In this document: one piece after another, positions 235-48,154 of the stretch
Position numbering within the stretch: the stretch's first letter is position 1
Layout of the letters: every line of letters begins with the position of its first letter
IMG/VR virus record: IMGVR_UViG_3300031521_000011
Coordinates: 1-64,000 of that record
Length of the DNA: 64,000 nt
Source: a virus
Strand: one strand, 5' to 3'
Position numbers and translations under genes: made by a program
The notes under the pieces: generated by a model
What the model was told of the DNA's origin: nothing
The model's input: only the letters and a program-made list of their open reading frames with translations
Databases searched by the model: none

Positions 235-1761
235 TCATCCTTTCAAGTCTGGAAATACATAGGGTCGCTGGCTGGCTAGGCGAGCCCGAATATCTGCCAA
301 TGTGTCATCAACCATAAGCTTTCCATCCAGGAATATATCTCGCATAAGATCATCGCTCATGGCCAATTCCCTATCAGCGGCAGAGAGTTCGTCTTGGTAG
401 TAGATTTCATTGTGGAAATCATCCATCAGCACAGCCACCATGCCCTTCTGGGATTTCTTGAAGTGGCTCTTGTCGGTGATGGGGTTCTTAAACAACTTCA
501 TCTCCTCGCCGTTGCAAACAGAATAGGTTGTCTTCAGGGCAAAGCCAAAGGTATCCCTTGTGACATACTGATAGGTAAAGGAGCCAATGCCGTATACCAT
601 ATTGGTAGAGGCAAAACCCTTGGCCATCAGGCGCTGGCAGATCTCTCGGCAGCGATCAATTGTGATAGCGTCGCCATAGATGCAGCCAATGTGTGTATCG
701 AGTTGCTTGAATCCATTTTTGGTGATCGTTCCTCCGAACACCTCCCACAGCAGCTCAATGGCGCCTTTGCGTTCCCATTCAGTCTCTCCATCGGGATCGC
801 CGCACACGATCAACACCGGGTCACCGGAGTCAGGCCGGATAACGACGCGGCCGTTGCGAGCCATGATGTTGGGCTTCAATGCCGGAAGTACCTGCGTCAG
901 GATCTTCCAGAAGTCCCATGTGTCGCTGACGATGCTCACGAAACCAGTCGGCTCAACATCTTCAATGATATGCCTGTAGGATTCCACTTCATCCGTTTGA
1001 CCGTGGCCGGCAGCTTCCATGACGGAATGCTCCGTGGCCGGGATTGATGTACCAACGAGCTCTTTCTCAATGTTAGCATTATAGAAATCTTCCATAGCCA
1101 TGATGGCCGGGATGGTGTCTGTGCCAGTAAAGGAGAGAAGGTGGCCCATACCACTGAGCTTCGCCGCCTCCAGGCAGGACATGCCGCGCATTGAAAAGTC
1201 GTGCCCTTGGAACTGCACGAACGTCGGGTCTCCGCCGGATACATGTGCATAGAAATCCAAGATACGACGATACTGGTCCGCAATCGTGGCGCTGGTGGAC
1301 GCCTGCCAGATCTCACATGACATCAATGTTTCCAGGCTGTTGGTGAGCCAGAAGAAATCCTTGTGAGTATTCTCGATGGTAAGCTGCGGGCACCTGATGG
1401 GCGTAAGGGTACCTTCCGGCACGGCACGGATGCGGATTGGCAGATAGTTGAGGTTCTTCAGCGCAACTATATGGGATGCATCAGGATTCTCCACGCCGAG
1501 AGTGTACTTGATGATGCGCTTGTATTCGGATATAACCTCATCCATCGTGCGCTCGAAGAAGAACTTGTTGAAGTACCAGATCAGATACTCCTTAACGAAT
1601 GCTTGATAGCCGAATGCGACTACCCTATCAACGCCGTCGATGCGGGACATTCGGGGCGTCCATGTGGAGTAGATGACTTCAGTACCCACAGGATACTGCT
1701 TGCGGTGCGACACCTTATAAAAGTCGCAAAGCAATGTTGCTGGATAGATGTAGTTCCCCAT
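235..1761 (-). CDS. nadV: Nicotinamide phosphoribosyltransferase (NAMPT/NadV family)
   Basis: The protein has 508 residues, close to the family norm of about 490. The family makes NMN from nicotinamide and PRPP; the Namat branch of phage NARP1 instead uses ADP-ribose pyrophosphate to make NAD+ directly. Recognisable blocks in order are QGHDFSMRGMSCLEAA, FTGTDTIPAI, SIPATEHSVMEAAG, VSDTWDFWKIL, VIRPDSGDP and the GDAITID/YGIGSFTYQ region around the active site. The start has a clear GGAGGAG site. The PRPP-synthetase-like gene lies 14 bp upstream in the same operon, so the two products probably act in sequence. Whether this is classic NAMPT or Namat cannot be decided from motifs alone. Confidence 0.93.
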   Translation of the reverse strand: MGNYIYPATLLCDFYKVSHRKQYPVGTEVIYSTWTPRMSRIDGVDRVVAFGYQAFVKEYLIWYFNKFFFERTMDEVISEYKRIIKYTLGVENPDASHIVALKNLNYLPIRIRAVPEGTLTPIRCPQLTIENTHKDFFWLTNSLETLMSCEIWQASTSATIADQYRRILDFYAHVSGGDPTFVQFQGHDFSMRGMSCLEAAKLSGMGHLLSFTGTDTIPAIMAMEDFYNANIEKELVGTSIPATEHSVMEAAGHGQTDEVESYRHIIEDVEPTGFVSIVSDTWDFWKILTQVLPALKPNIMARNGRVVIRPDSGDPVLIVCGDPDGETEWERKGAIELLWEVFGGTITKNGFKQLDTHIGCIYGDAITIDRCREICQRLMAKGFASTNMVYGIGSFTYQYVTRDTFGFALKTTYSVCNGEEMKLFKNPITDKSHFKKSQKGMVAVLMDDFHNEIYYQDELSAADRELAMSDDLMRDIFLDGKLMVDDTLADIRARLASQRPYVFPDLKG

Positions 1762-1775
1762 TTGTTATTCTCCTC

Positions 1776-2621
1776 CTATTTATTTATTGTATCGTTAAGT
1801 AGATCCAGCACCGTAAATTTGCTGTTGTAGTGGGTAAGTATGCTGTTGGTTGTGAACACCCTTTCGATGAGTGTGCTGTCCGGAATCTCCCCTTCGTTGA
1901 CCGTGTCCTCGCAATGGCCAACGAGAAGATATATTGCCCCGGCATTTCTAGCCTTCAATGCTTTGGCACCCATCATGAATGTTCCGCCTCTGGAGCATAG
2001 GTCATCAATCATCAATACTTTAGCCCCCGCCAAGCCCTGGCCGAGGCTGGGCTCACCTATACCAATGATCTGGAGGTCCTTGATTACCCCTGTGTCAAAG
2101 TCTCTGTCCTTGTGCCCCACTAATACCTTACGGAATTTGAACATCTTGCCATACCGCTTGGCTGCACCGGCATCCGGGAAATAAGCATAGTCATTTCCTA
2201 TATCGAACTTAGACAAGTGAAGCGCCTGCTGGAGCAACTCCTGTGTAAAATATCTGGGTGCGCTTCTATCCACAAGGGCCATGACAACATCTGAGTGCGG
2301 CTCGCCGATCTCAACAATATTGAATTCAAGAGAGTTGATAAACTCAGCCACATACTTCAGTGTAAATACGGAATTGTTTTCCACCCGATCCATGCGCTCA
2401 TAAGGCATGTAGTACATCTTGAGATTACAACTGCCGCCGTAGGATTGGATGTGCCTGACCACAAACATTAGTTTTATAAGGTCTGCATCACTTTGATACC
2501 AGAACTGAATGTTGCTTACGGCGCCCTTAAATATATGTGAGTTAATAAGGACTGGCTTGATGTTTGTCTCACCGTTGGGAAATTGTTCAAATGAAAGGCG
2601 GTTTCCGTTTAGGAAAATCAT
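1776..2621 (-). CDS. Ribose-phosphate pyrophosphokinase family protein (Prs or Adps-like)
   Basis: This 281-residue protein is shorter than cellular Prs (about 315) but has the family hallmarks: PYERMDR in the ATP-binding region and the PRPP loop VLMIDDLCSRGGT near residues 200-212. Prs makes PRPP from ribose 5-phosphate and ATP. In the phage NARP1 pathway a homologue (Adps) pyrophosphorylates ADP-ribose. Its position directly upstream of the NAMPT gene fits either a PRPP supplier or Adps. Its start codon overlaps the stop of the upstream gene (ATGA), suggesting translational coupling. Confidence 0.88.
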   Translation of the reverse strand: MIFLNGNRLSFEQFPNGETNIKPVLINSHIFKGAVSNIQFWYQSDADLIKLMFVVRHIQSYGGSCNLKMYYMPYERMDRVENNSVFTLKYVAEFINSLEFNIVEIGEPHSDVVMALVDRSAPRYFTQELLQQALHLSKFDIGNDYAYFPDAGAAKRYGKMFKFRKVLVGHKDRDFDTGVIKDLQIIGIGEPSLGQGLAGAKVLMIDDLCSRGGTFMMGAKALKARNAGAIYLLVGHCEDTVNEGEIPDSTLIERVFTTNSILTHYNSKFTVLDLLNDTINK

Positions 2622-7953: not shown

Positions 7954-7959
7954 AAAAGG

Positions 7960-7992: not shown

Positions 7993-8487
7993 TCAGCCAT
8001 TATCACACCCATAGGTGTTGATATATCCAATGGCTTCCATAAGCCACCCTTCATCGCGACTGCTGTCCAGATATGGCCTAATAATATCAGCGATCAAGAT
8101 CCTCATCTGATCCTCATTAATGTCCCGGTGTGTCTCATCCCACTCGTGCTGTTGCCAAGGCAAGCCGGCTGCATACATCAGAAACATGCCATTATCAGCA
8201 CTATCCGTACAGGCACACTCCAGTGGGATACGGCCTTCTTCGCGCCCCTTATCACTAAGCACTTCAATGAACTCTTGTAAGTCCACATCAACATCAATAC
8301 ATGCGGCCTGCCATGTATCAGAAACTGTTATGCCAGTGTCTTCTTCGATCTTGGCATAATTCGGGATATAGACCAATCCGTCCCGGCAAAGCGCCACAGC
8401 CTTCGTAATGTCGATGATTGGTTTGTCGAAAATTTGGTTTTCCAACTGGATCCCGAAGCCTTGGACAGCCCAATGTCTAGTTCCCAT
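7993..8487 (-). CDS. Unknown protein, INTYGC family member 1
   Basis: 164 residues, paralogous to the gene at 8500. Both start with a GxGI segment, share an IDITK/IDLAK segment, a cysteine-containing (D/N)GMFLMYxAGLPW or GEFMLYWPAYPW block, an alpha-helical DIIRPYL/DLLEPYL region, and end in INTYGC. The end is thus strongly conserved between the two. The function is unknown. The start has GGAGGAG upstream. Confidence 0.7.
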   Translation of the reverse strand: MGTRHWAVQGFGIQLENQIFDKPIIDITKAVALCRDGLVYIPNYAKIEEDTGITVSDTWQAACIDVDVDLQEFIEVLSDKGREEGRIPLECACTDSADNGMFLMYAAGLPWQQHEWDETHRDINEDQMRILIADIIRPYLDSSRDEGWLMEAIGYINTYGCDNG

Positions 8488-8499
8488 TGTTTCTCCTCC

Positions 8500-8943
8500 T
8501 CAACCGCACCCGTAGGTGTTAATGAAATCTATTTCATCCTCTAGCCATTCCCTAGTACGCCCTTCAGCAAGATAGGGCTCCAGAAGATCAGCTAAAACCT
8601 GACGTACAGAATTCTCCGTGAGTACCAAGTCCTTAAGTTTAAATTCCCACGGATATGCCGGCCAGTAAAGCATGAATTCGCCATTACATGCATTGCCTGT
8701 AGTGGACCAATCGAAATTATATCCCTCAGGCGCCTTGTCGCTTAGGAAAGCAATTATATCCGCCCACTCAGGGGCTTTGATATCAACCCCGGGAAATTCA
8801 CTGGCGATCTTCGCCAGATCTATCACCGGGCCGCCGGGTATGTCTACGTGATATACCCCTTCGCTACTTCTGCGCATCTCGCGTGTTGGCCTGGGTTCCA
8901 TATTGATACCCAAACCCATTATTGGCCAATAATCTGTACTCAT
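8500..8943 (-). CDS. Unknown protein, INTYGC family member 2
   Basis: 147 residues, tandem paralogue of the 7993 gene with the same block order (IDLAK, YWPAYPW, DLLEPYL, INTYGC). A third, more diverged relative may be the gene at 32919. It has its own promoter element 15 bp upstream. Such expansions of short proteins are common among phage host-takeover genes, but no activity can be assigned. Confidence 0.7.
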   Translation of the reverse strand: MSTDYWPIMGLGINMEPRPTREMRRSSEGVYHVDIPGGPVIDLAKIASEFPGVDIKAPEWADIIAFLSDKAPEGYNFDWSTTGNACNGEFMLYWPAYPWEFKLKDLVLTENSVRQVLADLLEPYLAEGRTREWLEDEIDFINTYGCG

Positions 8944-8958
8944 CTTATCCTCCTTGAG

Positions 8959-8973
8959 TTTTATTACTTATAC
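8959..8973 (-). promoter_or_regulatory. Promoter element copy 2 (GTATAAGTAATAAAA)
   Basis: Exact match to the most common form. It ends 15 bp before the start at 8943 and lies 11 bp after the U-tract of the structured-RNA terminator. Confidence 0.7.
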
Positions 8974-8984
8974 CAAATTTATGG

Positions 8985-9052
8985 CAAAAAAAGGGAGGTA
9001 GGCAGGACAAGCTCAGGGGCACTGCGCCCGTGGCCTATCCTGTCCCGCCTCC
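8985..9052 (-). terminator. Strong terminator closing the structured RNA region
   Basis: On the minus strand GGAGG and CGGGACA pair with TGTCCTG and CCTCC, around an internal GC-rich arm, and seven Ts follow (8986-8992 as A on the plus strand). No protein gene ends just before it, so it should end a non-coding transcript. Confidence 0.7.
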
Positions 9053-9640
9053 AATTGGCCGGATGGGTAAGTGTAGCCCGATCATAACGGACACCGCCAC
9101 CCAGACTTCTTACGCCAGCAAAGCCCCGGGGAGTGCCGCGACCCGCTATTGCGGATGGGACTCTCCGTAGGCGGCTGGCAAATAATAATAGCACCGGAAC
9201 CCACCTCAACCTCCGGCACTAACGACAGGTATGGATGCACAGAGATTCTTAACTCCCGAGTGACGCCAATCCCCTTAAATGCGCCACATGCACCCTACAT
9301 ATACTGACTCCATACAAACATCCACCTCAGAGTTGGGTAACAATAAGATTGGTCTTTCGCATATGGTTTTGAGCACGCATACGCAATGCTCATCTTCGTT
9401 CAAGCAACAGGGACGCTGCAAATGCTCGAGCGCAGCCTTCAGAGATTTTACCTTACCCACCTTCTACCGCCGTTTCTTTGTCATACATATCTTAGAGGGA
9501 GGCCGGATATGCGAGCGCTCACAATACCACTCCGCTCCAGATTGTTTGGTCCTCGACTGCACTACCACCCGGATATCACAGGTGTCATACAATTACATAA
9601 GAAACTTTTTCGACTCCACGGCTCAGCGCAATAAATACTG
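8985..9640 (-). ncRNA. Probable large structured non-coding RNA
   Basis: This 650-bp gap has no convincing gene but dense complementarity on the minus strand. Examples in plus coordinates: 9114-9119 with 9174-9179 (GCCAGC/GCTGGC) enclosing a CCGC-AATA-GCGG hairpin; 9064-9068, 9071-9074 and 9078-9080 stacked on 9099-9103, 9091-9094 and 9088-9090; and 9094-9098-type short arms continued by 9194-9198 with 9212-9216. It is GC-rich and ends in the terminator at 8985. The 5' end is undefined and no promoter is evident; it may be processed from read-through of the 9641 gene. GOLLD and other giant phage RNAs are candidates. A weak 61-codon reading at 9275-9460 means the upper half could be coding. 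Confidence 0.55.
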
Positions 9641-9892
9641 CTACTCTGTAACTTTAGCTGCTTCCTTGGCTGCCTTTCCAGCCTTGATAGCGTCAATGGT
9701 ATTCTCTACCATCTCGCCTACGAACCCGCCGGCCACCATGCCGCCTGCGACAACAATGCCGCTGTTGAACGAAGTGCCGATAAGAGAAGTGCTGCTGGTG
9801 TCTTCATGGGATGGATTAAGGGCGTCAACGCCCACGAGAGTCAGTCCGATTGCGCCGCCGATGACAGCACCGATTTTTGCACCTTTTTTCAT
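9641..9892 (-). CDS. Small glycine-zipper membrane protein
   Basis: 83 residues with two Gly-rich hydrophobic segments (IGAVIGGAIGLTLVGV and GIVVAGGMVAGGFVG) typical of glycine-zipper membrane hairpins, and a charged Ala/Lys tail. Similar zippers occur at 47454 and 47822. The ribosome site is AAGGGG. Holin-like or membrane-stress roles are possible but not shown. Confidence 0.7.
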   Translation of the reverse strand: MKKGAKIGAVIGGAIGLTLVGVDALNPSHEDTSSTSLIGTSFNSGIVVAGGMVAGGFVGEMVENTIDAIKAGKAAKEAAKVTE

Positions 9893-9925
9893 TTTGATTT
9901 CCCCTTTTCTTATTTAATATAGAAT

Positions 9926-9948
9926 CCCTGATTGCGCCTGTATCAGGG
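9926..9948 (-). promoter_or_regulatory. Leader hairpin before the 9892 gene
   Basis: CCCTGAT and ATCAGGG form a 7-bp stem with a 9-nt loop in the long leader between the element at 10056 and the gene at 9892. No U-tract follows. The gap 9893-10104 otherwise holds the attenuator-like hairpin, the promoter element and a terminator. Confidence 0.4.
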
Positions 9949-10021
9949 TAATCCCCAAATAGAACTACCTCCATATCCGCAAACCACACTTTACCAGTGA
10001 TTTAAGTATGAAGTTAGCAAT

Positions 10022-10046
10022 AAAAACGAGTATCTTAATGATACTC
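10022..10046 (-). terminator. Attenuator-like hairpin just after a promoter element
   Basis: GAGTATC and GATACTC form a 7-bp stem with loop ATTAA followed by CGTTTTTATT on the minus strand. It lies 9 bp downstream of the promoter element and 130 bp before the 9892 gene, so transcription would meet a terminator before the gene. Confidence 0.55.
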
Positions 10047-10055
10047 ACCTCCATA

Positions 10056-10070
10056 TTTTATTTCTTATAC
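10056..10070 (-). promoter_or_regulatory. Promoter element copy 3 (GTATAAGAAATAAAA)
   Basis: Serves the 9892 gene, but 163 bp separate it from the start codon, much more than for most copies; the intervening leader holds two hairpins. Confidence 0.6.
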
Positions 10071-10096
10071 CAAAGGATGGATAAAGTGTAAAAAGA

Positions 10097-10117
10097 AACC
10101 CGGCTTATCGCCGGGTT
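10097..10117 (-). terminator. Terminator overlapping the end of the 10105 gene
   Basis: AACCCGGC and GCCGGGTT form an 8-bp stem followed by TCTTTTT on the minus strand. Its 5' arm encodes the last residues of the 10105 gene and the stop codon lies in the loop. Confidence 0.75.
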
Positions 10118-10296
10118 CTTACGTTGTATTTCATTTGAGCTGTCATGCGCTCCTCACGTTCTCGGCGACCCATCTCACAATCGTACTCCTCTTGGAGCCT
10201 GGTGAGGTGGGCATTTACCCTAAACTTATTGATAATCCTAAATACAGGATATCCGAAAATCACAATAAATAACAAGACCCATCCAAACCAATCCAT
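10105..10296 (-). CDS. Small single-pass membrane protein
   Basis: 63 residues starting at 10296 (MDWFGWVLLFIVIFGYPVF). The N-terminal 20 residues form a membrane helix and the rest is highly charged (RLQEEYDCEMGRREREERM), probably an amphipathic or coiled tail. An upstream ATG is too close to GGAGG to be used. Confidence 0.65.
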   Translation of the reverse strand: MDWFGWVLLFIVIFGYPVFRIINKFRVNAHLTRLQEEYDCEMGRREREERMTAQMKYNVRTRR

Positions 10297-10313
10297 CTCC
10301 ATACCTCCATGTG

Positions 10314-10328
10314 TTTTATATCTTATAC
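10314..10328 (-). promoter_or_regulatory. Promoter element copy 4 (GTATAAGATATAAAA)
   Basis: Ends 17 bp before the start codon at 10296. The variable dinucleotide is AT. Confidence 0.65.
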
Positions 10329-10354
10329 CCAATATATGGAAATATAGAAGGAAT

Positions 10355-10378
10355 AAGGTGCGCCTTGCAGCGCACCTT
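10355..10378 (-). terminator. Terminator after the 10383 gene
   Basis: AAGGTGCGC and GCGCACCTT form a 9-bp stem with a 6-nt loop and a weak AU-rich tail, 5 bp past the stop of the 10383 gene. Confidence 0.7.
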
Positions 10379-10382
10379 GTGA

Positions 10383-11084
10383 TTATAGATCCTCCGGAAG
10401 CTTAACGCCACACTCATCGCAGATCTTCCTCAGATCGAGCGGCCAGCCATTCGTCTCCATGTCATTGTACAGGCTAAGGTCCATCTCGCCCACAGATACC
10501 ACCATAAGATACATGCAGGATATGATTACATCAGCAATAGTACTATTATATAGCCTTCCTTTAGATTTAAAGTAGTCGCAAACCTTATAGCAACTATATA
10601 CTGCGTCAGCCTTGCGAGTTCCTTGTATTGCGCGATTAGACATAGACCGAAATAATTTACTTATCCACTTTGCGGTGAATCCTTTGGTCCATAACCACGC
10701 CCATACCCTAAACGAAATATTCTTTTCGACAAGCATCATGCACTTTAACATGATTTGGATTTTTTGCATATCAGACATGCTGACTTCGTCGATTCGCTTA
10801 ATAGGCATTAAGGATGTGCAGCCCATCTTGCAAAGGCGATCAAAATGGTGTACACCACCGGACTCCATAACCCACAATACCTTACCATGGTCATATACAT
10901 CGTCCATTAAGTGGGCCGGAGACAAGAGCTGCGCTATCCTTGGGTCAACATAGCCGTGATACCAGCCTGAAGTGCATAGCCTCCCATCCTCTCGTGGGTA
11001 TATGATATACCGTGTAATACCAGCTTCCCATTGAGTGTAATTTTTGGTCTGATTCTTCGGGTTGGTGTATTTGTATACCTTCAT
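10383..11084 (-). CDS. Unknown protein, MKV(Y/F)K family member 1
   Basis: 233 residues, paralogous to the next gene. Both open with MKVYK/MKVFK, have a WE(A/V)G segment, a Trp/His/Tyr block (SGWYHGYVDPRIAQL versus HWFHCYHDLRQVALF), a VLWVMESGG/VLLFEAEAEG strand and a KMGCTSL/KMGCTEL motif. This N-terminal order resembles the DUF7666-type domain found in many phages; I am not certain. The ATG overlaps the upstream stop (TAATG). Confidence 0.65.
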   Translation of the reverse strand: MKVYKYTNPKNQTKNYTQWEAGITRYIIYPREDGRLCTSGWYHGYVDPRIAQLLSPAHLMDDVYDHGKVLWVMESGGVHHFDRLCKMGCTSLMPIKRIDEVSMSDMQKIQIMLKCMMLVEKNISFRVWAWLWTKGFTAKWISKLFRSMSNRAIQGTRKADAVYSCYKVCDYFKSKGRLYNSTIADVIISCMYLMVVSVGEMDLSLYNDMETNGWPLDLRKICDECGVKLPEDL

Positions 11085-13065: not shown

Positions 13066-13114
13066 GCTGGCGGGGCGTGCATCGACGTAAGGAGTGCACG
13101 GTGGCGCCGCCAGC
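13066..13114. repeat. GC-rich inverted repeat
   Basis: GCTGGCGG (13066-13073) and CCGCCAGC (13107-13114) are perfect inverted repeats, with a nested GTGCA/TGCAC pair inside. It could form a cruciform or an RNA hairpin at the left edge of the control region. Confidence 0.6.
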
Positions 13115-13148
13115 ATGGATAACGCCTCTGGCGACTCTGGCGATGTGA

Positions 13149-13174
13149 GTATGCATACAATGTATAATTATACA
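13149..13174. repeat. Two adjacent perfect palindromes
   Basis: GTATGCATAC (13149-13158) and TGTATAATTATACA (13161-13174) sit 2 bp apart. Perfect palindromes of this size are typical dimeric regulator sites; the second also contains a TATAAT. Confidence 0.6.
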
Positions 13175-13187
13175 AAAAAATTCCTTG

Positions 13188-13651
13188 TTGGCACGGTACC
13201 CCCCTCTCTTGGCAGAGAAGTGCCCTCTCTTGGCAGAGAAGTGCCCTCTCTTGGCAGACTCTTGGCAGACAAATTGGTAAAAAAAGGAAATTTTTCTTAT
13301 AAATGTATAAAGCTAAAACGTGCCAGAATGGCTCTATTACTTATATATATATAATAATATAATATATATATATACAGTAGTATACAGATGGCTGCCAAGA
13401 GAGGAGAGGGAAAACATATAAGGAGATAATTTTTATTTTTTCTTTAAAAGAAATTGCTCTTTTCAAAAAAAAAATATTTATACCCCCGGGTACCTTTTCT
13501 GAGAATTTCGTGCCTCTTGGCAGAGAAATGCCCTCAAACCCGCATGAATCCTCACTTTACCAGTTTTTGCCTGTGCCAAGAGAGGGGGGTATCGTGCCAA
13601 GAGACCATGTTTTTCTGCCAACAGTTGGCACAAAGTGCCCCCTTGTTGGCA
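13188..13651. repeat. Twelve TTGGCA boxes, mainly phased at 21 bp
   Basis: Forward TTGGCA starts at 13188, 13209, 13230, 13251, 13262, 13517, 13625 and 13646; the reverse form TGCCAA starts at 13393, 13574, 13595 and 13616. Spacing is exactly 21 bp within three runs (13188-13251, 13574-13616 and 13625-13646), two helical turns, so bound proteins would face the same side. The left run is built on a 21-bp unit CTTGGCAGAGAAGTGCCCTCT. The runs flank the AT-rich core. Confidence 0.8.
13338..13380. other. AT-only core between box clusters
   Basis: A run of alternating T and A with almost no G or C lies between the left and right TTGGCA clusters. It should melt easily, as expected for a DNA unwinding element. 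Confidence 0.5.
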
Positions 13652-13902
13652 CGCGAAGCGTCCGATTTCCACTTCCGTGCTGTAATGGAGGAGCTCTGGG
13701 CTCTGAAATTATGCCCTGGATGTCATCGCCGGCCGCCTTGCGGGCAGATTTTGCAGACCAATGTGGTAGCAAAACGGAGCATGAGCGAGAAAAACCCTCG
13801 TATGTAACACTTGGTGAAAGAAGGATTGATGCCAAGGCTGAATATGGGGAGTGGAAAAGTGGATAGGGTTGTGAGCATATGGCTGTTGACATATGGCTTG
13901 AA

Positions 13903-14169: not shown

Positions 14170-14364
14170 ATGGAAAAAACAGGAACGATATACTGTGGTA
14201 TGAACATATACATCAATCCTTTAACGGGTGAACAGTTCCAGAAGACTGCAGGCGAGAAGTTTGAACGCATGGACTCACGCCAATTGAAAGTCGAACAGCG
14301 CTTCATAAAGAAGCATGCGAAAGATATGGCTAACAAGATAGGGGAGGTTGCACTCAATGGATAA
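14170..14364 (+). CDS. Small protein with KTAGEKF motif
   Basis: 64 residues starting at 14170 behind AAAGGAG. It begins MEKTG and has FQKTAGEKF in the middle, a pattern like the [E/Q]K[IT]A units found in the tagged proteins of the plus-strand islands. The C-terminus is basic. It is the first gene of the 14-17.8 kb operon and overlaps the next gene by 8 bp; possibly a minor virion component. Confidence 0.7.
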   Translation: MEKTGTIYCGMNIYINPLTGEQFQKTAGEKFERMDSRQLKVEQRFIKKHAKDMANKIGEVALNG

Positions 14365-16876
14365 GTTTGCTGCAAGTTTGGCTGAAGGTTTCATTCCAGA
14401 AAGAACCATGCAAATGAACCTCGATCCTCAGTACGATCAGATTCGCAAAACTGCCGGCATGGTGCTCCATGGCAAGAAATCTGATGACATCAAGAAGTTC
14501 GTTTTGAATTATATACGCCCTGACCTGAAGGCCGCTGGTGTTGAGGGCGAATTGAGCTGCTCTATAGAGTCCTCGGATGTTGGAAAAAATGACAATAGCG
14601 ATATACTGGAAGGAACTGGAAAGGTAAACATTAAGAAGGATGGGGCCACAATTTCCATTCCTTTCGTCGTTTCTAGCGGAGAAGTTTCCATTGATGTGAT
14701 TCAAGTTGCCGATAAAACGATACCTTACGACAGAGAGAACTTAGGAAAAATATTTGAGGCACTTGGCCATGCTGGAAAAGAAAAAGCAGCGTTCGATGGC
14801 ACATCCGGCTTTATCGGAACAGAGAAGCCCATTGCCATGAGCACTGACCCAGGCTTCCTTGCTGATGTCATGCAGATTCGTGACAAGCATGTCAGCAAGA
14901 ACATTGTTGATGGAAATCATTATGTCTATGCCTTCGAGCATCTTGACACTGCTCTCGAAAAGACTGCGGGTATCGCCGAACTGACGAAGGCATCGTTGGC
15001 GACGATAGAGCAGCTTGCTGTAGCAGCATTTGAAAATGAAGTCGAAGAGCAGATCAAGAAAGCATGCGCGGGCACGGAAGACATGGATAAACTGGCAGAA
15101 GATGTCAGGATGTTCCTTGAGGACGCAGCCGGCCTGTCCTGGAAGCTTGCATCGCAGATTGCTGATGGCCAGCACATTGTCTTCCCTGAGAAGAATGGAA
15201 AAGAAATTTCAATGACTCACGCTGTAGTGTTCAAAAATGCATTGCTTATGCGTGAACCATACGATATGGCGCAATCATTAAGCGACAGCGCTTCTCCGTA
15301 TGAACATGATCGCAACAACCTGCAGAAGATGGAGTATGACAATAAGAAAAACTCCATTATCATTATCACGAACGACAACAGATTTGTTGTTCTTCAAAAC
15401 AACGAACCATTCTGGGCTATTGAGTCGGATGAGTCGTGGACATTCAAAACAACAACCCCATGGGCTATGCAGCCGAGCAGCATTTACTGCGGCATATTCG
15501 GTAACTCCATCACGTTCCCTTTCCAGGTTCGTTATGTTGAAAATGCAACCAAGCGGGATGTCAACGCTCCAATGCCTGATGGCATCATTGAGTCCACAAT
15601 GGCTCAGGTCGACAACATCCCGAAGATCCTCAGGGCTCGCTGTTCTGAATGGCCTTCGGAGAATCACAGCTTCAACCTGATGGGCATCCCTGGCACAAGA
15701 TTTAAGGCGTTGACAGCGCAAGCAGCGCAAGATGCGTGGAAGGGCCTAATGAAGGATATCTCTCCTGAGTGGGCGATGAGAATCATGGCCACCACCAGTT
15801 ATGGCGATGTCTGGGCTACCGACCCTGAACTCACCCGTCTCATTCCCATCAAAGGATTCATCGGAGATTATCTGCGCAATGCAAAGCAAGTCGAGTTCAC
15901 CGCCGGTGATACCCTGTTTAAGGAAGCCGGCAGCCAGATGGTCAAGCTCACGTGCTATGACAAGATGCGTGGCATCTTTGATGTTTATGTGCAATACAAA
16001 AACGACGTCAACAAGATCTTCAAGACCACCATCAAAACCTTCAACAAAGTTGACCGCTATACCGTTATGGGCATCCTTCGCACCATCGGGTTTGCTCCTT
16101 CCGAAGTGGTTGAGTTGGTTGAGAAGGCCAGCATCAACAACACAGCCTCCGCCGATATGCCAAAGGATGCAACCCCTGAGAACATCGAAGGCGGCGACAC
16201 TCAGACAAAGGCAAGAGCTCTTGTGAAGAAGCTCGTCGGCAAGGCTTTGACAGCAGACAACGTCAGCAATATGGGCGCATCCATCGCCGGGGCCCAGCTC
16301 GCAGACATCGCAGAAGACAATGACAATCTCAAGCACATCCTCACATCCGTGCATGAGTGGACAAAGAAGTCAGAGTTGTGTGCATGTGAATTCGAGAAGC
16401 TTGCCATCGAGACACAGTCGGACCAGGCACTCAACGTGGCCAAAGTATTGGTCTCAGCATACTACACCGGCACAGCAATCGGTGATGCCTGCAATGGCAA
16501 GGTCATGAATCATTTCAAGGAAGCGATGGAGTCCGTTCGCGCTGCTCAACCCGAGATCGAGAAGCTTGCCTACGAACTTATTGCTATGAAGATAGACGGA
16601 TTCAAGGCTGGCACACAGATCATTTCTCCGAATCTCATTACAGCAGCCATCGGATGCATGGACAGGTTGGTCAAGGTGGCCAACTCTGGCGGCACGGCAC
16701 ACTCAGAAGTGATTTGTGAGGAGTGTGGTAAGAAGGCCGAGGCCGGGCAGCAGCTCATCCAGGGTAAATGCCCCGCATGCTACCAGGAAGAGCAGCAGAA
16801 AAGCAATGACGGCAGCGCTACGGTGATCCAGGATGACAAAGACAGAGTAACCCCAGTATCATCATCAATGCAGTAG
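14357..16876 (+). CDS. Large putative virion protein with C-terminal zinc finger
   Basis: 839 residues, starting at ATG 14357 behind GGAGG (a TTG at 14348 is less likely). It begins MDKFA and carries several K-x-A units (IRKTAG, LEKTAG, MDKLAE, FEKLAI, IEKLAY). There is no transmembrane segment. Near the C-terminus CEECGKKAEAG...GKCPAC forms a four-Cys zinc knuckle, followed by a polar tail. Size and position at the head of an operon with other tagged proteins suggest a structural or internal virion protein; no sequence family is recognised. Confidence 0.7.
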   Translation: MDKFAASLAEGFIPERTMQMNLDPQYDQIRKTAGMVLHGKKSDDIKKFVLNYIRPDLKAAGVEGELSCSIESSDVGKNDNSDILEGTGKVNIKKDGATISIPFVVSSGEVSIDVIQVADKTIPYDRENLGKIFEALGHAGKEKAAFDGTSGFIGTEKPIAMSTDPGFLADVMQIRDKHVSKNIVDGNHYVYAFEHLDTALEKTAGIAELTKASLATIEQLAVAAFENEVEEQIKKACAGTEDMDKLAEDVRMFLEDAAGLSWKLASQIADGQHIVFPEKNGKEISMTHAVVFKNALLMREPYDMAQSLSDSASPYEHDRNNLQKMEYDNKKNSIIIITNDNRFVVLQNNEPFWAIESDESWTFKTTTPWAMQPSSIYCGIFGNSITFPFQVRYVENATKRDVNAPMPDGIIESTMAQVDNIPKILRARCSEWPSENHSFNLMGIPGTRFKALTAQAAQDAWKGLMKDISPEWAMRIMATTSYGDVWATDPELTRLIPIKGFIGDYLRNAKQVEFTAGDTLFKEAGSQMVKLTCYDKMRGIFDVYVQYKNDVNKIFKTTIKTFNKVDRYTVMGILRTIGFAPSEVVELVEKASINNTASADMPKDATPENIEGGDTQTKARALVKKLVGKALTADNVSNMGASIAGAQLADIAEDNDNLKHILTSVHEWTKKSELCACEFEKLAIETQSDQALNVAKVLVSAYYTGTAIGDACNGKVMNHFKEAMESVRAAQPEIEKLAYELIAMKIDGFKAGTQIISPNLITAAIGCMDRLVKVANSGGTAHSEVICEECGKKAEAGQQLIQGKCPACYQEEQQKSNDGSATVIQDDKDRVTPVSSSMQ

Positions 16877-19982: not shown

Positions 19983-21338
19983 ATGGAAAAGATATCGATG
20001 GAAAAGATTGCCGCCGCTTTTGGGATAATAACTTTCCCAAAGGCGGAGTATAACTCATTAACGAATAGGCTTGCCCAGGGCAAGCCTATAATGACAACTA
20101 GGGTGAGTTTAGAAAAAGATAAATACAAAGTAGGAAAGGTATATAGATCAGACCTTGGGGTAAAATTAAAAGTTGTAAGTGTGAAGTCTTACAACTCTAT
20201 TAATGAACATCCCTATTTAGGTGAGTTGACATCAACTCAAAAGAATGCAATCTCTAAATATGGACCGTATGATTTTATCGTACTTAGAAAAGTCTCTGAA
20301 GCAATGAATAAAGATGCTATGGAGAAGATAGCCCTTCCGAAATGGAAAAGCATATATGGGGAGCTCTCTCAGTTTGCAAAGAACAAGCTCTTAATGAGCG
20401 GCATTCATAACCCTGAAAAGGAAATGTTTGGCATACAAAAAGGAACTAGGCAACTTGTTAAGTCTCAGGGCGGGATTATTGATAGATCAAAAACTGGTCA
20501 TAAGATAATCCATGAGATTATGACCAGAGGAAAACAAATGGGAGATAGCTCAGAAGAGATTGATGCTTTAAAAAATATAGTGAGTCTCAAGCATGATCGT
20601 GGGCGTGGGTTCATGACAATTCCTATGGTTAAAGGCGTACCAAATGTTACTGATTCAAAATCAATTGTTGGGCAAGGTAGTTATAAAAGACACTTAAGTC
20701 CAGAACCAGCAGAATTTTTAAAAAAACAGAATAGACTGTCTGGAGATGATTTATTTCAATTTGTACACGACGCTATGAAAAAGGGTACAAAATCTGAGCG
20801 CAATTATTTAGATGCATTGGCAAATCGGCACGAGGCTGACGAATTGAGATACTTCAATAAAAATACCAAACTAGGTAAGCACACAAAGATGACAGAAAAA
20901 GGTGAGTGGCCTAGAACAAGTATCCTGGGCCACCACATATCCCCCAACGTATTACATCAAGAATCCACACACATAGCTCTTGCTCCACCGAATGTTGGAA
21001 ATGTGTTACTAACCATGCGTGGTAGTCCAGATTACGGAGATGAGGGAGTATGGTTAAAAAAGCATGGTTTGGAATATGGAAAAAGCACAAGGTTCAATAA
21101 AAAACTTGCAAAGAAACTCGATGACGATTTGATACGCACTAGTATTGAATATGAGGCGCGCTCCAAACGTCTTGCTGAATATAAAGCACGCTCAGCTAAA
21201 TGGGAAGCAGAGGATGCAATTGATCAAGCTAATTATGACGCTAAACTCAAGAATACCAATGACTTTAATGATAGAAGAAAAGTAATGGATGAATATTATG
21301 AATCTAAACGTCAAAAACGCATGGACAGATATAAATAA
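19983..21338 (+). CDS. Tagged protein of unknown function, AT-rich gene
   Basis: 451 residues starting MEKISMEKIA, with a second internal tag (MNKDAMEKIALPKWKSIYG) about residue 108. The middle region has a His-rich stretch (ILGHHISPNVLHQESTHI) and ends in a charged helix (RSKRLAEYKARSAKWEAEDA). By eye the gene is more AT-rich than its neighbours, which may mean recent acquisition. It may be an enzyme cargo behind a tag, but no catalytic family is clear. Confidence 0.65.
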   Translation: MEKISMEKIAAAFGIITFPKAEYNSLTNRLAQGKPIMTTRVSLEKDKYKVGKVYRSDLGVKLKVVSVKSYNSINEHPYLGELTSTQKNAISKYGPYDFIVLRKVSEAMNKDAMEKIALPKWKSIYGELSQFAKNKLLMSGIHNPEKEMFGIQKGTRQLVKSQGGIIDRSKTGHKIIHEIMTRGKQMGDSSEEIDALKNIVSLKHDRGRGFMTIPMVKGVPNVTDSKSIVGQGSYKRHLSPEPAEFLKKQNRLSGDDLFQFVHDAMKKGTKSERNYLDALANRHEADELRYFNKNTKLGKHTKMTEKGEWPRTSILGHHISPNVLHQESTHIALAPPNVGNVLLTMRGSPDYGDEGVWLKKHGLEYGKSTRFNKKLAKKLDDDLIRTSIEYEARSKRLAEYKARSAKWEAEDAIDQANYDAKLKNTNDFNDRRKVMDEYYESKRQKRMDRYK

Positions 21339-21358
21339 AACAAGAGTAGGTGAATGTG

Positions 21359-22084
21359 ATGGAAAAGATATCGATGGAGAAGATTGCCCTGAACGCTCAG
21401 AAAGCCCGGGAGATGGCAAGCGCCGCCGGGCTTCTTCCTTATGGTAAGTGGAAGATAGCATTGAAGGCTATGAGGAATGGTCGGGGCGATCTCCTTCAAG
21501 GCCGTGCGCTCGCTGAGACTAAGCAAAAGCTGGGTAAGTTACCGAATAATGTAAGGCAAAGGATACTGAGCATAAATGATCGATATAATCCAGGTAAAGA
21601 AATTCTGGTTGCCATGGATAAGCAGTGGGATAGCAATAAATACGAGAGACCATACTTCACTCTTGGTGGTCATGATATCTCAACCAGGGCCGGTCTTTCT
21701 AAACTTATTGCCCATACTCACCCACAAGAGTCGTTAACGAAGACATTAAGATCAAAGATGACGGTGAATAGAGTAAAGGAGCTTTACTTACCAAGGCGTC
21801 AGAGAATTATCGATACTATGGATTTGAATGATCCTAAGGTTGCTGCTCGGCTCCGTAATTTGGATTCTATCTGGGATAGTACAAAAAATCTTGAGAAAAT
21901 GCTTAAAGAGCCGCAGTCAGGAATGAGTAGCACAGATCTTTCATCTGCAGTAGAGGATATTCGCCAGCTTGGAACGAGTCATGATCGTTCAAGTATTATA
22001 GGCCATGGCGACCAAACCGAAGGTATCCACACCGTTATGCCTGACGGCCGTGCAAAGTCCATCTACTTCAAGTATAATAAGTAG
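21359..22084 (+). CDS. Tagged protein with HTHP motif, possible JAB-like metalloprotease
   Basis: 241 residues from ATG 21359 behind AGGTGA; starts MEKISMEKIALNAQKARE. In the second half LIAHTHPQES resembles the metal-binding HxHP of JAB/JAMM peptidases, and MSSTDLSSAVED could supply the S-x2-D part, but the intervening region is longer than usual. SSIIGHGDQTEG then fits a following strand. JAB-like assignment is an inference from motifs only. Confidence 0.6.
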   Translation: MEKISMEKIALNAQKAREMASAAGLLPYGKWKIALKAMRNGRGDLLQGRALAETKQKLGKLPNNVRQRILSINDRYNPGKEILVAMDKQWDSNKYERPYFTLGGHDISTRAGLSKLIAHTHPQESLTKTLRSKMTVNRVKELYLPRRQRIIDTMDLNDPKVAARLRNLDSIWDSTKNLEKMLKEPQSGMSSTDLSSAVEDIRQLGTSHDRSSIIGHGDQTEGIHTVMPDGRAKSIYFKYNK

Positions 22085-28260: not shown

Positions 28261-28275
28261 TTTTATTACTTATAC
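28261..28275 (-). promoter_or_regulatory. Promoter element copy 8 (GTATAAGTAATAAAA)
   Basis: 17 bp before the start at 28243, heading the two-gene unit with the NLTPHP gene. No terminator is seen between it and the 28295 gene. Confidence 0.65.
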
Positions 28276-28294
28276 GGACTTTTGGGTTTCAGAG

Positions 28295-30685: not shown

Positions 30686-31170
30686 TTGTTATCCTCCTTG
30701 GGTTTGTAATTAGTACCTGAAGCCAGGCAGTTTTCACAGGCTTTTCCGATGTTCTGACACGAATAACACATTGGGGGCATACTCATGGTCATTTCCTCCT
30801 CAATCTTCCAGAACCCGAAGCATGATGCATCACCTTCCAGTGTTCCATAGTAATATCCTTTAGGCGCAATGCCAGAGAAGTACTCCATTATCTCCTCGTT
30901 AATGAGATGGCTGATATATTCCAACCGCTGCACTCGAGCCAGCGCCGTGGGGTACTTCTTCTCCCACCTCTCTCGGTCACTTTTGCGGAAAGAATCCTCG
31001 AGCTTCGCATCCGGTAGCGCCGATTTCCATTCGGCAAAGCATCTTGGACGCAGCTTATATTCGCGCACAATCGCGATATGTGCCTCTATAAGATCAGAGT
31101 CACGCAATGTAGCATGGCTTACTTCAAGGCTGCCGGCCTGCTTGATGGCATTAATCAAATCTTTCTTCAT
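30670..31170 (-). CDS. Unknown protein with C-terminal CxxC motifs
   Basis: 166 residues from the start at 31170, behind AAAGGGG. The N-terminal two-thirds are helical and basic (RKSDRERWEKKYPTALARVQ); the C-terminus carries CYSC and CENC, a likely zinc knuckle. Unknown function; second gene after the AcrVA2-like gene. Confidence 0.6.
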   Translation of the reverse strand: MKKDLINAIKQAGSLEVSHATLRDSDLIEAHIAIVREYKLRPRCFAEWKSALPDAKLEDSFRKSDRERWEKKYPTALARVQRLEYISHLINEEIMEYFSGIAPKGYYYGTLEGDASCFGFWKIEEEMTMSMPPMCYSCQNIGKACENCLASGTNYKPKEDNKCSTK

Positions 31171-40847: not shown

Positions 40848-40870
40848 AAATAAAAAGGATGGTGAGTGTT

Positions 40871-41206
40871 ATGGAAAAGATATCTATGGAAAAAATAGCG
40901 CTCCAGGCCGGTATCAAATATAAAATTTCAGGTAAGGTTCCGAGAGATATTAGGGCCATGCAAACAATAAACTTAGTTAAGAGTAATCTTAAGAAGTATA
41001 TTGCCTTGGTAAACAAGACAAAAAAGGCTACTGGCCTATCGTATAAGTCGGGAGAATTTTCCAATGTTCAGAAGAATATTGAATCTGGAAATGAAACCAT
41101 CAGAATGCTGACAGATATGAGGAAAAATACATTCCCACTCATGATAAAAGCGCATGGTAATAGTAAAAAGACTGTGTTGAAAAAGATTCCGAAAGAGGTA
41201 TTTTAA
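40871..41206 (+). CDS. Tagged protein (MEKISMEKIA)
   Basis: 111 residues. The first ten residues are the tag, identical to those of the 19983 and 21359 proteins. The rest is basic and helical (KSNLKKYIALVNKTKKATG) with no hydrophobic segment. The start ATG is preferred over an upstream GTG because paralogues share it. No function recognised beyond the tag. Confidence 0.7.
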   Translation: MEKISMEKIALQAGIKYKISGKVPRDIRAMQTINLVKSNLKKYIALVNKTKKATGLSYKSGEFSNVQKNIESGNETIRMLTDMRKNTFPLMIKAHGNSKKTVLKKIPKEVF

Positions 41207-41207
41207 A

Positions 41208-41711
41208 ATGAATAAGCTTGCAATGTACAAAGAAGCCATCTACAAACGAGCAACACGTGTTGCCAATCCCTATATATTTAGGGGTCCAGCATCGAATGAG
41301 GACCCTGAATCCTACTCAGCCCGGCTGCAAGGCATGTACGATAAGGGTGAGAAAATAAAGAACACCGCCAACATCGCCAGCCTTGGTATTGGTGCTGGCG
41401 CATTGGCGACAAGTATCCTGTCCGGACGCGGTGCATCGAAGCGGCTTAAGCAACTCGCAGACTCTGGCAAACTTGATGCCCTGGCTCTCAAGATCAAGAA
41501 GTCCGTTCCTGAAACCAAGCAAATATTGAGCCGTGCTATTGGACGGCGCATTGGCCTCTCTGCCGGCGCCGGAATCGGTGGAGTACCGGCCATGATGCTT
41601 ACTGAGGGAATCGGTAGAACATTGGCCAACAAATCAACACTCAGATCCATGACACCTGATGAGCGTCAGCGCTATAATGATGTCACCAAAATCAGACACA
41701 ATGGAATATAG
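41208..41711 (+). CDS. Tagged Gly-zipper membrane protein
   Basis: 167 residues beginning MNKLAMYKEAIYKRA, the KExIYK form of the tag. Two Gly/Ala-rich hydrophobic segments (ASLGIGAGALATSIL and GLSAGAGIGGVPAMM) separated by a basic helix. Behind AAGAGG, 1 bp after the previous gene. A likely membrane-inserting virion protein. Confidence 0.7.
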   Translation: MNKLAMYKEAIYKRATRVANPYIFRGPASNEDPESYSARLQGMYDKGEKIKNTANIASLGIGAGALATSILSGRGASKRLKQLADSGKLDALALKIKKSVPETKQILSRAIGRRIGLSAGAGIGGVPAMMLTEGIGRTLANKSTLRSMTPDERQRYNDVTKIRHNGI

Positions 41712-41723
41712 GAGGAAAAGACA

Positions 41724-42374
41724 ATGGACAAGGTAGCAGCATATAAAGAGGCCATCTACAAGGTGGCTGCAGAAGGAAAGAAAAATCCGAATTCATCTTT
41801 TCTGTTCCCCTTGAACCGTGATTACATCCGTGAGGAGGATTTTTCTCCCGCGTATGCAAAGGCGTCAAGGGAACAGGGCCATATCAATAAGGTTGTTGGC
41901 GGCGTTAGCCTGGGTGGTTTGGCACTTGGTGGAGGCAGCGTAATCGGCGGTTTTGCTCTTGGTGCGAAAACCGCAGACAAGGCACGAAGGCTTGCTAAGC
42001 CAGCTGCCAAGGCTACTCTAAATATCATCAAAAGAGATATTTACAATGGCAGAAGAGGAATGCAGGACCTCTTTAGCCCCGTTCATTCTGAGATAGCTGC
42101 TCACAACGTCCTCAACAAGTCTAAGATTTTTAACGACGTAACGAAGCGACTTCGTCGAAACAACAAAATCGCTGACGGCTTAGTCCTTGGCGGGTTACTC
42201 GTTCCCTCAGTCGCGATGGCAGCTGCCAGTGCTCCATTTATGAAGAAGCGTCAGGAAGTGGTCAAAAGCCTGATGAAGTCAGCGCCCCGCAATAGGAGTG
42301 AGGAGAATTTCAAGGCGGACATGCTAAATCTGCCGAAGAACATCTCTCCAAGGAAACGCCACGCCGATGAATGA
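41724..42374 (+). CDS. Tagged Gly-zipper membrane protein
   Basis: 216 residues beginning MDKVAAYKEAIYKVA. Hydrophobic segments: VVGGVSLGGLALGGGSVIGG and VLGGLLVPSVAMAAASA; basic tail ending PRKRHADE. It is a close analogue of the 41208 protein in layout. Confidence 0.7.
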   Translation: MDKVAAYKEAIYKVAAEGKKNPNSSFLFPLNRDYIREEDFSPAYAKASREQGHINKVVGGVSLGGLALGGGSVIGGFALGAKTADKARRLAKPAAKATLNIIKRDIYNGRRGMQDLFSPVHSEIAAHNVLNKSKIFNDVTKRLRRNNKIADGLVLGGLLVPSVAMAAASAPFMKKRQEVVKSLMKSAPRNRSEENFKADMLNLPKNISPRKRHADE

Positions 42375-42380
42375 TACCGG

Positions 42381-42409
42381 TTTACTTGCTCAGTAAGTAG
42401 TGGTATCAT
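42381..42409 (+). promoter_or_regulatory. Sigma-A-type promoter of the endolysin gene
   Basis: TTTACT, 17-bp spacer, TATCAT, 24 bp before the start at 42434. Confidence 0.55.
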
Positions 42410-42433
42410 AGCAGTCGAAAGGAAGTGTTAATT

Positions 42434-43165
42434 ATGGCAACGGGTAAAAACCTTGTTGATATTCTTGTTCCGAAGATCGGAAGCGGTTATGTATATGGTG
42501 GGCAAGGCCAGATTTGCACGATGGCCATGATCAACACACTCATGGCCCGGTACGGACGCGATCACTATTACTTTAAGGGTTATAGTGCCGAGAAGTGGAT
42601 CGGCAAGCCCTCCTTTGACTGCTCCGGCTTTGTCAGCTGGGGGCGCTACATGCTCGGATTGAACCCAGGCCACAAGAGTTACAGCGCCAATGGCTATTAC
42701 ACCATGACAACTCGCATCTCCAAGCTGCAGCTCTTGGCTGGCGATCTCTGTTTCATCGTGAACAGCGATGGCCACGCTACCCATGTTGGTGTATATATGG
42801 GGAACGGTTACGTTGTTCAGGCTGCCAGCACAAAATCAGGCGTTATCAAAACGAAACTTGGTACCGGTTGGAGCGGCTACGGCAGACTGAAGGACCTAGT
42901 GCAGGTTGTCGTGAAACCAACCGTTGAGTATACCGAGATTAAGTTTGGAGCAAATGGCCCCGAGGTTTATCAGATGCAAAAGGCGCTGGCCCTCCTGAAC
43001 TACAACCCAGGTCCGCTCGACGGAGTCTTTGGGCCACTGACACTGACCGCAGTGAGGGCATTTCAAAAAGGAAACCAGCTGTACGTGGATGGCCGCCCTG
43101 GTCAGCAGACTCTCAGTGTACTTTATGGTACCGCAGATGTTGTTCCAAAGAAGGCTGCTGCCTAA
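42434..43165 (+). CDS. Endolysin: NlpC/P60 peptidase with peptidoglycan-binding domain
   Basis: 243 residues. The NlpC/P60 fold has catalytic Cys63 in FDCSGFVSW and His117 in HATHVGVYMG. Residues 170-235 (GPEVYQMQKALALLNYNPGP then GVFGPLTLTAVRAFQ) form a PG_binding_1 domain. The family cuts D-Glu-mDAP or similar bonds in peptide stems. AAAGGAAG precedes the ATG. No signal peptide, so export would need a holin or other route. The start at 42434 is chosen over a TTG at 42425. Confidence 0.92.
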   Translation: MATGKNLVDILVPKIGSGYVYGGQGQICTMAMINTLMARYGRDHYYFKGYSAEKWIGKPSFDCSGFVSWGRYMLGLNPGHKSYSANGYYTMTTRISKLQLLAGDLCFIVNSDGHATHVGVYMGNGYVVQAASTKSGVIKTKLGTGWSGYGRLKDLVQVVVKPTVEYTEIKFGANGPEVYQMQKALALLNYNPGPLDGVFGPLTLTAVRAFQKGNQLYVDGRPGQQTLSVLYGTADVVPKKAAA

Positions 43166-43190
43166 ACCGAAGTCCAAAAAAAAAGATAGA

Positions 43191-43212
43191 GCCCGGCCAT
43201 ATGGCCGGGCTG
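43191..43212. terminator. Bidirectional terminator
   Basis: AGCCCGGCCA and TGGCCGGGCT with A-tract left and TTTTT right, between the endolysin gene and the convergent minus-strand gene. Confidence 0.85.
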
Positions 43213-43215
43213 TTT

Positions 43216-43641
43216 TTATGATAGGGATCCCATTTCTTTGAGCATGGACAGCTTTACCACCAGGGATACATCTCTTCTTTCCATGTATGGACAGATGATA
43301 TTCTGGAAGATATCATCCCTTCTAACAAGGGCGACGGCGCGTTGATTCCTGGTCATCACCAGGTAATTGTCCAGCGCAGCCACTAATATGTCATTGAGGG
43401 ATACGTCAAATCCCAGATCAGCAGTTTCCGAAACCAGTTTTGTCATCAAATCTTCAGGGATTCTGATCTGAAGATTAACGAACGGCTCTACTGCTGGAGG
43501 ACATTCGACCTTAACCTTCGTCGGCTCCACATAAGTGACGACAATTGGCTCCTTAGGTCTGCGCTTGAACCCAGGCTTTGGACCAGGCTTTTTCCTTTCG
43601 ATGACGTCATCGACATTAACACCTTTGTCGTTTTTATCCAT
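43216..43641 (-). CDS. Ribbon-helix-helix DNA-binding protein with AT-hook-like arm
   Basis: 141 residues. The arm KKPGPKPGFKRRPKEP resembles an AT-hook; then VNLQIRIPEDLMTKLVSETA followed by DLGFDVSLNDILVAALDNYL fits an Arc/MetJ-type RHH dimer (beta strand, helix, helix). The rest is a helical tail. It probably represses or activates transcription. Its own promoter element overlaps the -35 of the divergent tagged operon. Confidence 0.75.
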   Translation of the reverse strand: MDKNDKGVNVDDVIERKKPGPKPGFKRRPKEPIVVTYVEPTKVKVECPPAVEPFVNLQIRIPEDLMTKLVSETADLGFDVSLNDILVAALDNYLVMTRNQRAVALVRRDDIFQNIICPYMERRDVSLVVKLSMLKEMGSLS

Positions 43642-43659
43642 GATAACCCCTCCATTGTG

Positions 43660-43674
43660 TTTTATTGCTTATAC
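43660..43674 (-). promoter_or_regulatory. Promoter element copy 14 (GTATAAGCAATAAAA)
   Basis: 18 bp before the start at 43641. Positions 43665-43670 double as the TTGCTT -35 of the rightward promoter. Confidence 0.65.
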
Positions 43675-43693
43675 TCCGTTTTTACCTTATAAT
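43665..43693 (+). promoter_or_regulatory. Sigma-A-type promoter overlapping a minus-strand element
   Basis: TTGCTT, 17-bp spacer, TATAAT; the tagged gene starts 22 bp downstream. Its -35 lies inside the minus-strand element, so polymerases for the two directions cannot occupy the site together. Confidence 0.65.
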
Positions 43694-43715
43694 AAATCGA
43701 GTAGAGGTGAGTAAT

Positions 43716-44462
43716 ATGGAAAAGATATCTCTTGAAAAAGTCCATCCTGCCCTTAAAGAGATGCAGGATTCGTTTGAAGATCCGGTTTCAAAGAAAGTGG
43801 CTACGATGATTGCCACTTCTCATGAATATAAAACTCCCAACATAAAAGCCGGGCACCACTTTACGAGGAATTACAGATGGAGCAATGGCACGATGAAGAT
43901 CAGTGACCTTCAGGGTATCAACAAGCCGATCACGCAGGAAAAGGTTGATAGCCTTGTGAAAGCCATTGGTAAGTCTGGCAGGGTAGATCCTTTCGTTGTC
44001 GTGAACCAGTTAGATGCCATCCGCCCACAGACGCCCGGCAAAAAAGTATTGATCGACGGACATCACCGGCTGGAGGCCTGCAAGAAACTCGGCATCGATG
44101 AAGTCCCTGTATATCGCGGCGACTACACTGGCGATGCTCACAGGGATATTGAGGAATTAAAGAAGGCAGCCAGCTTTGCGTCTGTCTATAATTTTGTTTA
44201 CAATAATCCATACCTTGGTATGGGAAAGGAAGCCTCTCAAGATGGCATCTCGGAAGTCCGGCGGCTCACAAAAGATCGCCAATTTACCATTGACCCAATC
44301 GTTGCAGGTGAGTTGGGCGGGCTTGGCCTTATGGGAACCTCTCTTATCATCAAGAAGAGACTTCCGTCAAGGAGTACCTTGCTTCGCAACGCTGGTATCG
44401 GCATCGGTCTCGGCAGCGCCGCAATTGGCACGGCTCGCACGATCAGAAAGGGTGAAAAATAA
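43716..44462 (+). CDS. Tagged ParB-fold protein with Gly-zipper tail
   Basis: 248 residues beginning MEKISLEKVHPALKEMQ. Residues 60-140 form a ParB/Srx domain with the signature DGHHRLEACKKLGIDEVPVY at 114-133. The last 60 residues are hydrophobic with two Gly/Ala segments (GELGGLGLMGTSLII and AGIGIGLGSAAIGTA) and basic ends. ParB-fold enzymes bind CTP/ATP or act as nucleases. With a tag and membrane segments it looks like an enzyme delivered with the virion, an inference. Confidence 0.75.
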   Translation: MEKISLEKVHPALKEMQDSFEDPVSKKVATMIATSHEYKTPNIKAGHHFTRNYRWSNGTMKISDLQGINKPITQEKVDSLVKAIGKSGRVDPFVVVNQLDAIRPQTPGKKVLIDGHHRLEACKKLGIDEVPVYRGDYTGDAHRDIEELKKAASFASVYNFVYNNPYLGMGKEASQDGISEVRRLTKDRQFTIDPIVAGELGGLGLMGTSLIIKKRLPSRSTLLRNAGIGIGLGSAAIGTARTIRKGEK

Positions 44463-48120: not shown

Positions 48121-48135
48121 TTTTATTACTTATAC
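48121..48135 (-). promoter_or_regulatory. Promoter element copy 16 (GTATAAGTAATAAAA)
   Basis: 23 bp before the start at 48097; terminator directly upstream. Confidence 0.65.
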
Positions 48136-48154
48136 CAACAATGAGCGCAAAAAA

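Follow-up and report, generated by a model that had tools for sequence, protein, structure and literature searches.

Positions 8985-9640 of the phage genome under study (G000; IMG/VR record IMGVR_UViG_3300031521_000011, 168,244 bases) are best explained as the structured, noncoding 3' end of a transcript that is read from the minus strand and carries the gene for an 83-aa protein, perhaps leaving a stable fragment, a reading that we hold tentatively and at slightly under even confidence. Transcription would start at a promoter-like motif at 10071-10056, proceed through the 83-aa gene (9892-9641), then along an unstructured stretch of ~415 nt and four strong hairpins (SL1 to SL4), and would end at the very stable SL4 with the U7 tract behind it, a short distance ahead of the next unit's promoter motif. 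These hairpins would insulate that following unit and shield the 3' end of the RNA from exonucleases, so that a stable 3' fragment of ~190-240 nt would probably accumulate. The window analyzed here is the first 64,000 nt of the record, and genome-wide counts (gaps, terminator-like hairpins and motif copies) refer to 164 kb of it. Literature searches returned nothing recognizable as this phage, and they were too unspecific to call the region unreported.

Organization of the Locus and Promoter-Like Motif

The noncoding gap spans positions 8944-9640 of the minus strand (697 nt) and separates the 83-aa gene (9641-9892) from the 147-aa gene of the next unit (8500-8943). It is the longest of 157 gaps, with a runner-up of 462 nt and a median of 33 nt, as counted with a simple purpose-made gene caller after a spurious plus-strand ORF (9030-9170) had been dropped. 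Against such a median, ~650 nt of 3' untranslated sequence is unusual, and something may therefore select for it. GC content is 0.60 for 8985-9225 vs 0.49 for 9171-9640, so that the GC-richness ascribed by an earlier note to the entire region applies only to its end. The 83-aa gene (codon score +0.245) codes for a small Gly-rich protein with no family match above the cut-off. The 147-aa gene forms a paralogous pair with 7993-8487 (window 7993-8943, minus strand), the 164- and 147-aa proteins being 37% identical. A relative of the 147-aa protein (29% identical) is encoded by Moorella phage MTATph1, in a different gene neighborhood and without such a gap; the existence of this relative hints at a clostridial host.

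The motif GTATAAGnnATAAAA occurs just upstream of many minus-strand genes, with 21 matches in the window, all on the minus strand and against 0.5 expected; in the 164 kb of G000 it was found 26 times on the minus strand and never on the plus strand (two mismatches at most to the 16-base form). Its location directly before ribosome-binding sites and on one strand only suggests that it is probably the phage group's own promoter, from whose copies transcripts probably start just before the ribosome-binding site. One copy, GGTATAAGAAATAAAA (10056-10071, minus strand), lies upstream of the 83-aa gene and is the probable start of its transcription unit; another, GGTATAAGTAATAAAA (8959-8974, minus strand), comes right after the terminator and would serve the next unit. 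No other site scoring above 2 was found on the minus strand between 8980 and 10080. The order on this strand is thus promoter-like motif, 83-aa gene, noncoding stretch, hairpins, terminator and next promoter-like motif. Since the minus strand codes on both flanks of the gap, the motif is confined to it, and one copy directly follows the terminator, this arrangement argues that the region closes the transcript of the 83-aa gene. Further copies occur in the window, e.g., at 28261-28276 and 48121-48136. Right after the motif at 10056, the minus strand at 9967-10056 presents a good GGAGG site and then ~25 open codons for a small hydrophobic peptide, with an ATG missing, by eye, at the usual distance.

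Other features of the genome were recorded. A phage NAD-salvage pair, nicotinamide phosphoribosyltransferase beside ribose-phosphate pyrophosphokinase, is found at window 235-2621 (minus strand). Several plus-strand proteins at 19983-22084 and 40859-45589 start with sequences like MEKISMEKIA- or MDKVAAYKEAI-, and G007, one of the related phages described below, matches one such start over 19 residues; these N-termini may represent a common leader peptide that serves targeting or is cleaved off. Window 13094-13807 recurs at ~90.8-91.2 kb of G000 (translated pieces 62-92% identical).

Four Predicted Hairpins With a Large Terminator-Like End

The last ~240 nt (9225-8985, minus strand) are predicted to fold into four separate consecutive hairpins of 13, 26, 17, and 24 bp, followed by U7. 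Scored alone, and with boundaries picked after folding, the hairpins gave z-scores of -4.35 for SL1 (9189-9221; 13 bp, followed by the U-rich linker UAUUAUUAUUU), -4.48 for SL2 (9114-9179; 26 bp with bulges and an AAUA tetraloop), -1.11, not significant, for SL3 (9057-9106; 17 bp, loop UUAUGAU), and -5.51 for SL4 (8994-9052; 24 bp), with mean pair probabilities of 0.94, 0.97, 0.79, and 0.99, respectively. These individual values make SL1 and SL2 likely to be genuine hairpins and leave SL3 in doubt. Two of the stems proposed earlier were recovered in this fold: 9114-9119 pairs exactly with 9174-9179, forming the 6-bp base of SL2, and the stack at 9064-9103 falls within SL3.

Taken together, positions 8985-9225 of the minus strand scored a z of -4.4 to -4.7 over repeated estimates and had the lowest MFE among 399 equally long segments (241 nt) taken from the window's minus strand; when the 14 top-ranking segments were re-scored with 60 shuffles, they came only eighth by z, and some of the seven lower ones lie inside genes. 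Folding is more favorable on the minus than on the plus strand (-115.5 vs -99.5 kcal/mol). The lowest MFE and this strand preference, together with the lack of coding signal (see below), favor a structured transcript end. Upstream, the 415 nt at 9226-9640 fold no better than shuffled sequence (z +0.6), and hence the z of -3.06 obtained for the whole 656 nt stems from the last 241 nt. This confines the structure, which had been thought to extend over some 650 nt, to 8985-9225: a minus-strand RNA end with its own strong terminator stands, and a discrete 650-nt structured RNA does not, only ~240 nt being structured.

SL4 (9052-8994, minus strand; 24 bp, -40.3 kcal/mol) is followed at 8992-8986 by the U7 tract. 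By sequence and predicted fold it is a stable GC-rich hairpin with a U-rich tract at once behind it, which is the form of an intrinsic terminator, and as a sequence feature it is clear. It ranked first among 171 terminator-like hairpins in the 164 kb (89 on the minus and 82 on the plus strand), bearing out the large terminator expected at the end of the region and arguing for a transcript end here. It was missing from the list of a simple terminator scan, its bulge-interrupted stem being unlike the simple form sought by that scan.

SL4 itself supplies much of the folding signal, which counts against the 3' end reading: without this hairpin, SL1-SL3 jointly reached only a z of -2.46, a modestly unusual value that 7 of 300 shuffles equaled in stability. 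This modest figure, with a SL3 that is not unusual at all, would suit an oversized intrinsic terminator acting as insulator, accompanied by incidental hairpins in neutral intergenic DNA and having no further RNA function. We give this explanation about one chance in four. It leaves unexplained the length of 697 nt and the confinement of GC-richness to the end of the gap, and SL1 and SL2 are each strong alone.

Related Phages

A motif search identified the relative G001 (166,758 bases), whose 28 copies of the motif all share one strand. Helicase alignments identified G006 and G007, in which a less strict version of the motif occurs 9 and 12 times, respectively, as well as four more distant records (G008-G011). 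The helicases of G001, G006, and G007 are 63, 52, and 57% identical to that of G000. Gene order near the locus is not kept in these three phages, and no relative with the same gene neighborhood was found; in IMG/VR, the neighboring proteins encoded at 8500-8943, 9641-9892, and 14348-16876 and the alignment of the paralogous pair returned no relatives.

The RNA sequence itself gave no blastn match in G001 and only 12-16-base matches in G006 and G007. A structure model (R1), in which this single sequence was entered twice and which is a weak probe, matched only itself in 27 sources including the searched stretches of G001, G006, and G007, found nothing beyond G000 itself in G008-G011, and found nothing in OR602862 (Moorella phage MTATph1); since a single-sequence model probes weakly, these blanks are no proof of absence. 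DNA searches of phage records yielded only six short matches (E 0.007 to 1), and those of plasmid records none. One of the six, a 27-nt match on SL3 (E 1), lies within a protein-coding gene of Burkholderia phage FLC9 and was taken as chance; the other five fall on the 83-aa gene, its neighbor sequence or the promoter motif. A gapped pattern that combined the linker between SL2 and SL3 with the loop of SL3 matched four IMG/VR contigs, none of which fits the structure model.

Long near-perfect hairpins (~15-30 bp), mostly intergenic, were detected in the relatives: 26 in G001 (160 kb), 16 in G007, and 3 in G006, against none in one mononucleotide shuffle of each. Strong hairpins between units are thus ordinary in this group, which supports the plainer readings, and the explanation as terminator and insulator only gains from them and from the failure to find the sequence in related phages. 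Against it, G000 itself has none of these long perfect stems.

Some motif copies in the relatives form one arm of a long near-perfect palindrome ending before the ribosome-binding site, in which the motif is paired to an inverted copy of itself (G001 record 55830-55905, 62580-62650, and 71325-71400; G007 31020-31095). In addition, an intergenic stretch of G001 (record 90248-90358) that precedes a variant of the motif has a ~12-bp hairpin followed by a ~28-bp hairpin without U tract (z -11); this could be an RNase III site.

Candidate Start Sites Within the Gap

A dedicated small noncoding RNA of ~190-240 nt, transcribed from its own promoter in the gap and acting by base pairing or protein binding, was also considered and is judged unlikely. 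As an example, it would consist of SL2-SL4, with the extended -10-like site TGCTATTAT (9193-9185, minus strand) setting its start near 9178. Such a SL1-SL4 RNA (or a SL2-SL4 RNA of ~190 nt) would be a discrete, stable small RNA of phage origin, from a class that Rfam lacks, occurring so far in one phage lineage and arising from the genome's longest noncoding gap, a proposal to which we assign roughly one chance in five. In its favor are the exceptional length of the gap and the stability and high pair probability of SL2, and TGCTATTAT, the only extended -10-like site in 8985-9640, ends 5 nt before this hairpin. There are 64 such sites on the minus strand in the 164 kb, and TGCTATTAT is a possible internal promoter whose match is weak and post hoc. 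The family motif GTATAAGnnATAAAA has no copy there, and promoter-like sites are not enriched: one sigma-70-like site was found on the minus strand in 8985-9640, and the four present in 8000-11000 are not above the 5.6 expected by chance. This scarcity of sites favors the 3' end reading. Moreover, no homologue that could lend covariation to the small RNA was found in the searched records.

Coding Potential of the Gap

Nine ORFs were tested, eight within the gap and one overlapping its edge, and their codon-usage scores ranged from -0.02 to -0.23, as compared with -0.02 to +0.25 for nine neighboring or short genes. The period-3 power of 9226-9640 was 1.69, below the 5th percentile of 112 coding windows (1.9) and the 95th percentile of shuffles (1.89). 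These negative scores and slight periodicity agree with the original impression that no plausible full-length gene is present. A decayed or unrecognized protein gene in 9226-9640 is accordingly improbable; the plus strand does hold a 120-codon open frame (9279-9638) and the minus strand a 61-aa ORF (9275-9460), the latter without Pfam match, and by eye no ribosome-binding site is located at the usual spacing.

Known RNA Families

The earlier note had suggested a long structured RNA such as GOLLD, which would be encoded near tRNAs. The idea was reasonable, since Herelleviridae staphylophages are reported to express RNAs likened to GOLLD and ROOL (PMC10383478); the tests nonetheless failed. Searching Rfam gave no match at gathering thresholds, and up to E 10 just two microRNA families far below cut-off appeared, with no GOLLD, ROOL, OLE or other credible family among the matches. 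GOLLD and ROOL are described as often near tRNA genes (PMC12286853); the sole tRNA in the window is a lone tRNA-Met (59285-59362), 50 kb from the region, and a cluster of 12 tRNAs is found at G000 record 156302-162940. An elaborate fold over some 500-800 nt or more, as in GOLLD, ROOL, and OLE, was not found, given the z of +0.6 for 9226-9640 and the four separate hairpins. A diverged member of GOLLD, ROOL or OLE is thus extremely improbable, for the phage setting and a 3' part more structured than the 5' part, loosely recalling the conserved 3' and less conserved 5' regions described for GOLLD (PMC12286853), are outweighed by the silence of Rfam, the distant tRNAs and a structured part of only ~240 nt, predicted as a plain row of hairpins without multibranch core. 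A retron or DGR partner was ruled out, as the record has no reverse-transcriptase domain (PF00078).

Significance and Comparison With Known Systems

If a discrete RNA is made, the region would add a new structured RNA, encoded by the phage itself, to a group of ~150-170-kb phages that has barely been described; if none is made, it would exemplify an oversized terminator and the separation of units in this group. In both cases, the motif common to the group and its three further members provide a starting point for reading the group's transcription.

RNAs derived from 3' UTRs are a class that is likewise noncoding, structured and terminator-ended. The same features are shared by phage-encoded small RNAs as presented in a review (PMC12197685). 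With GOLLD and ROOL, as described in PMC12286853, the region has in common that it is a noncoding structured RNA in a phage; unlike them, it shows no family match and no tRNA neighborhood, its structured part is far shorter, and no multibranch fold is predicted. In form, SL4 resembles the intrinsic (rho-independent) terminators of phage transcription units: a GC-rich hairpin runs directly into a U tract where one unit ends, ahead of the promoter-like motif that opens the next. In contrast to the compact terminator-like hairpins of G000 (8-13 bp, e.g., those ending at 7957, 32883, 39001, and 54092), SL4 is bulged, extends over 24 bp and reaches -40 kcal/mol, and, unlike ordinary intrinsic terminators, it is preceded by three more hairpins.
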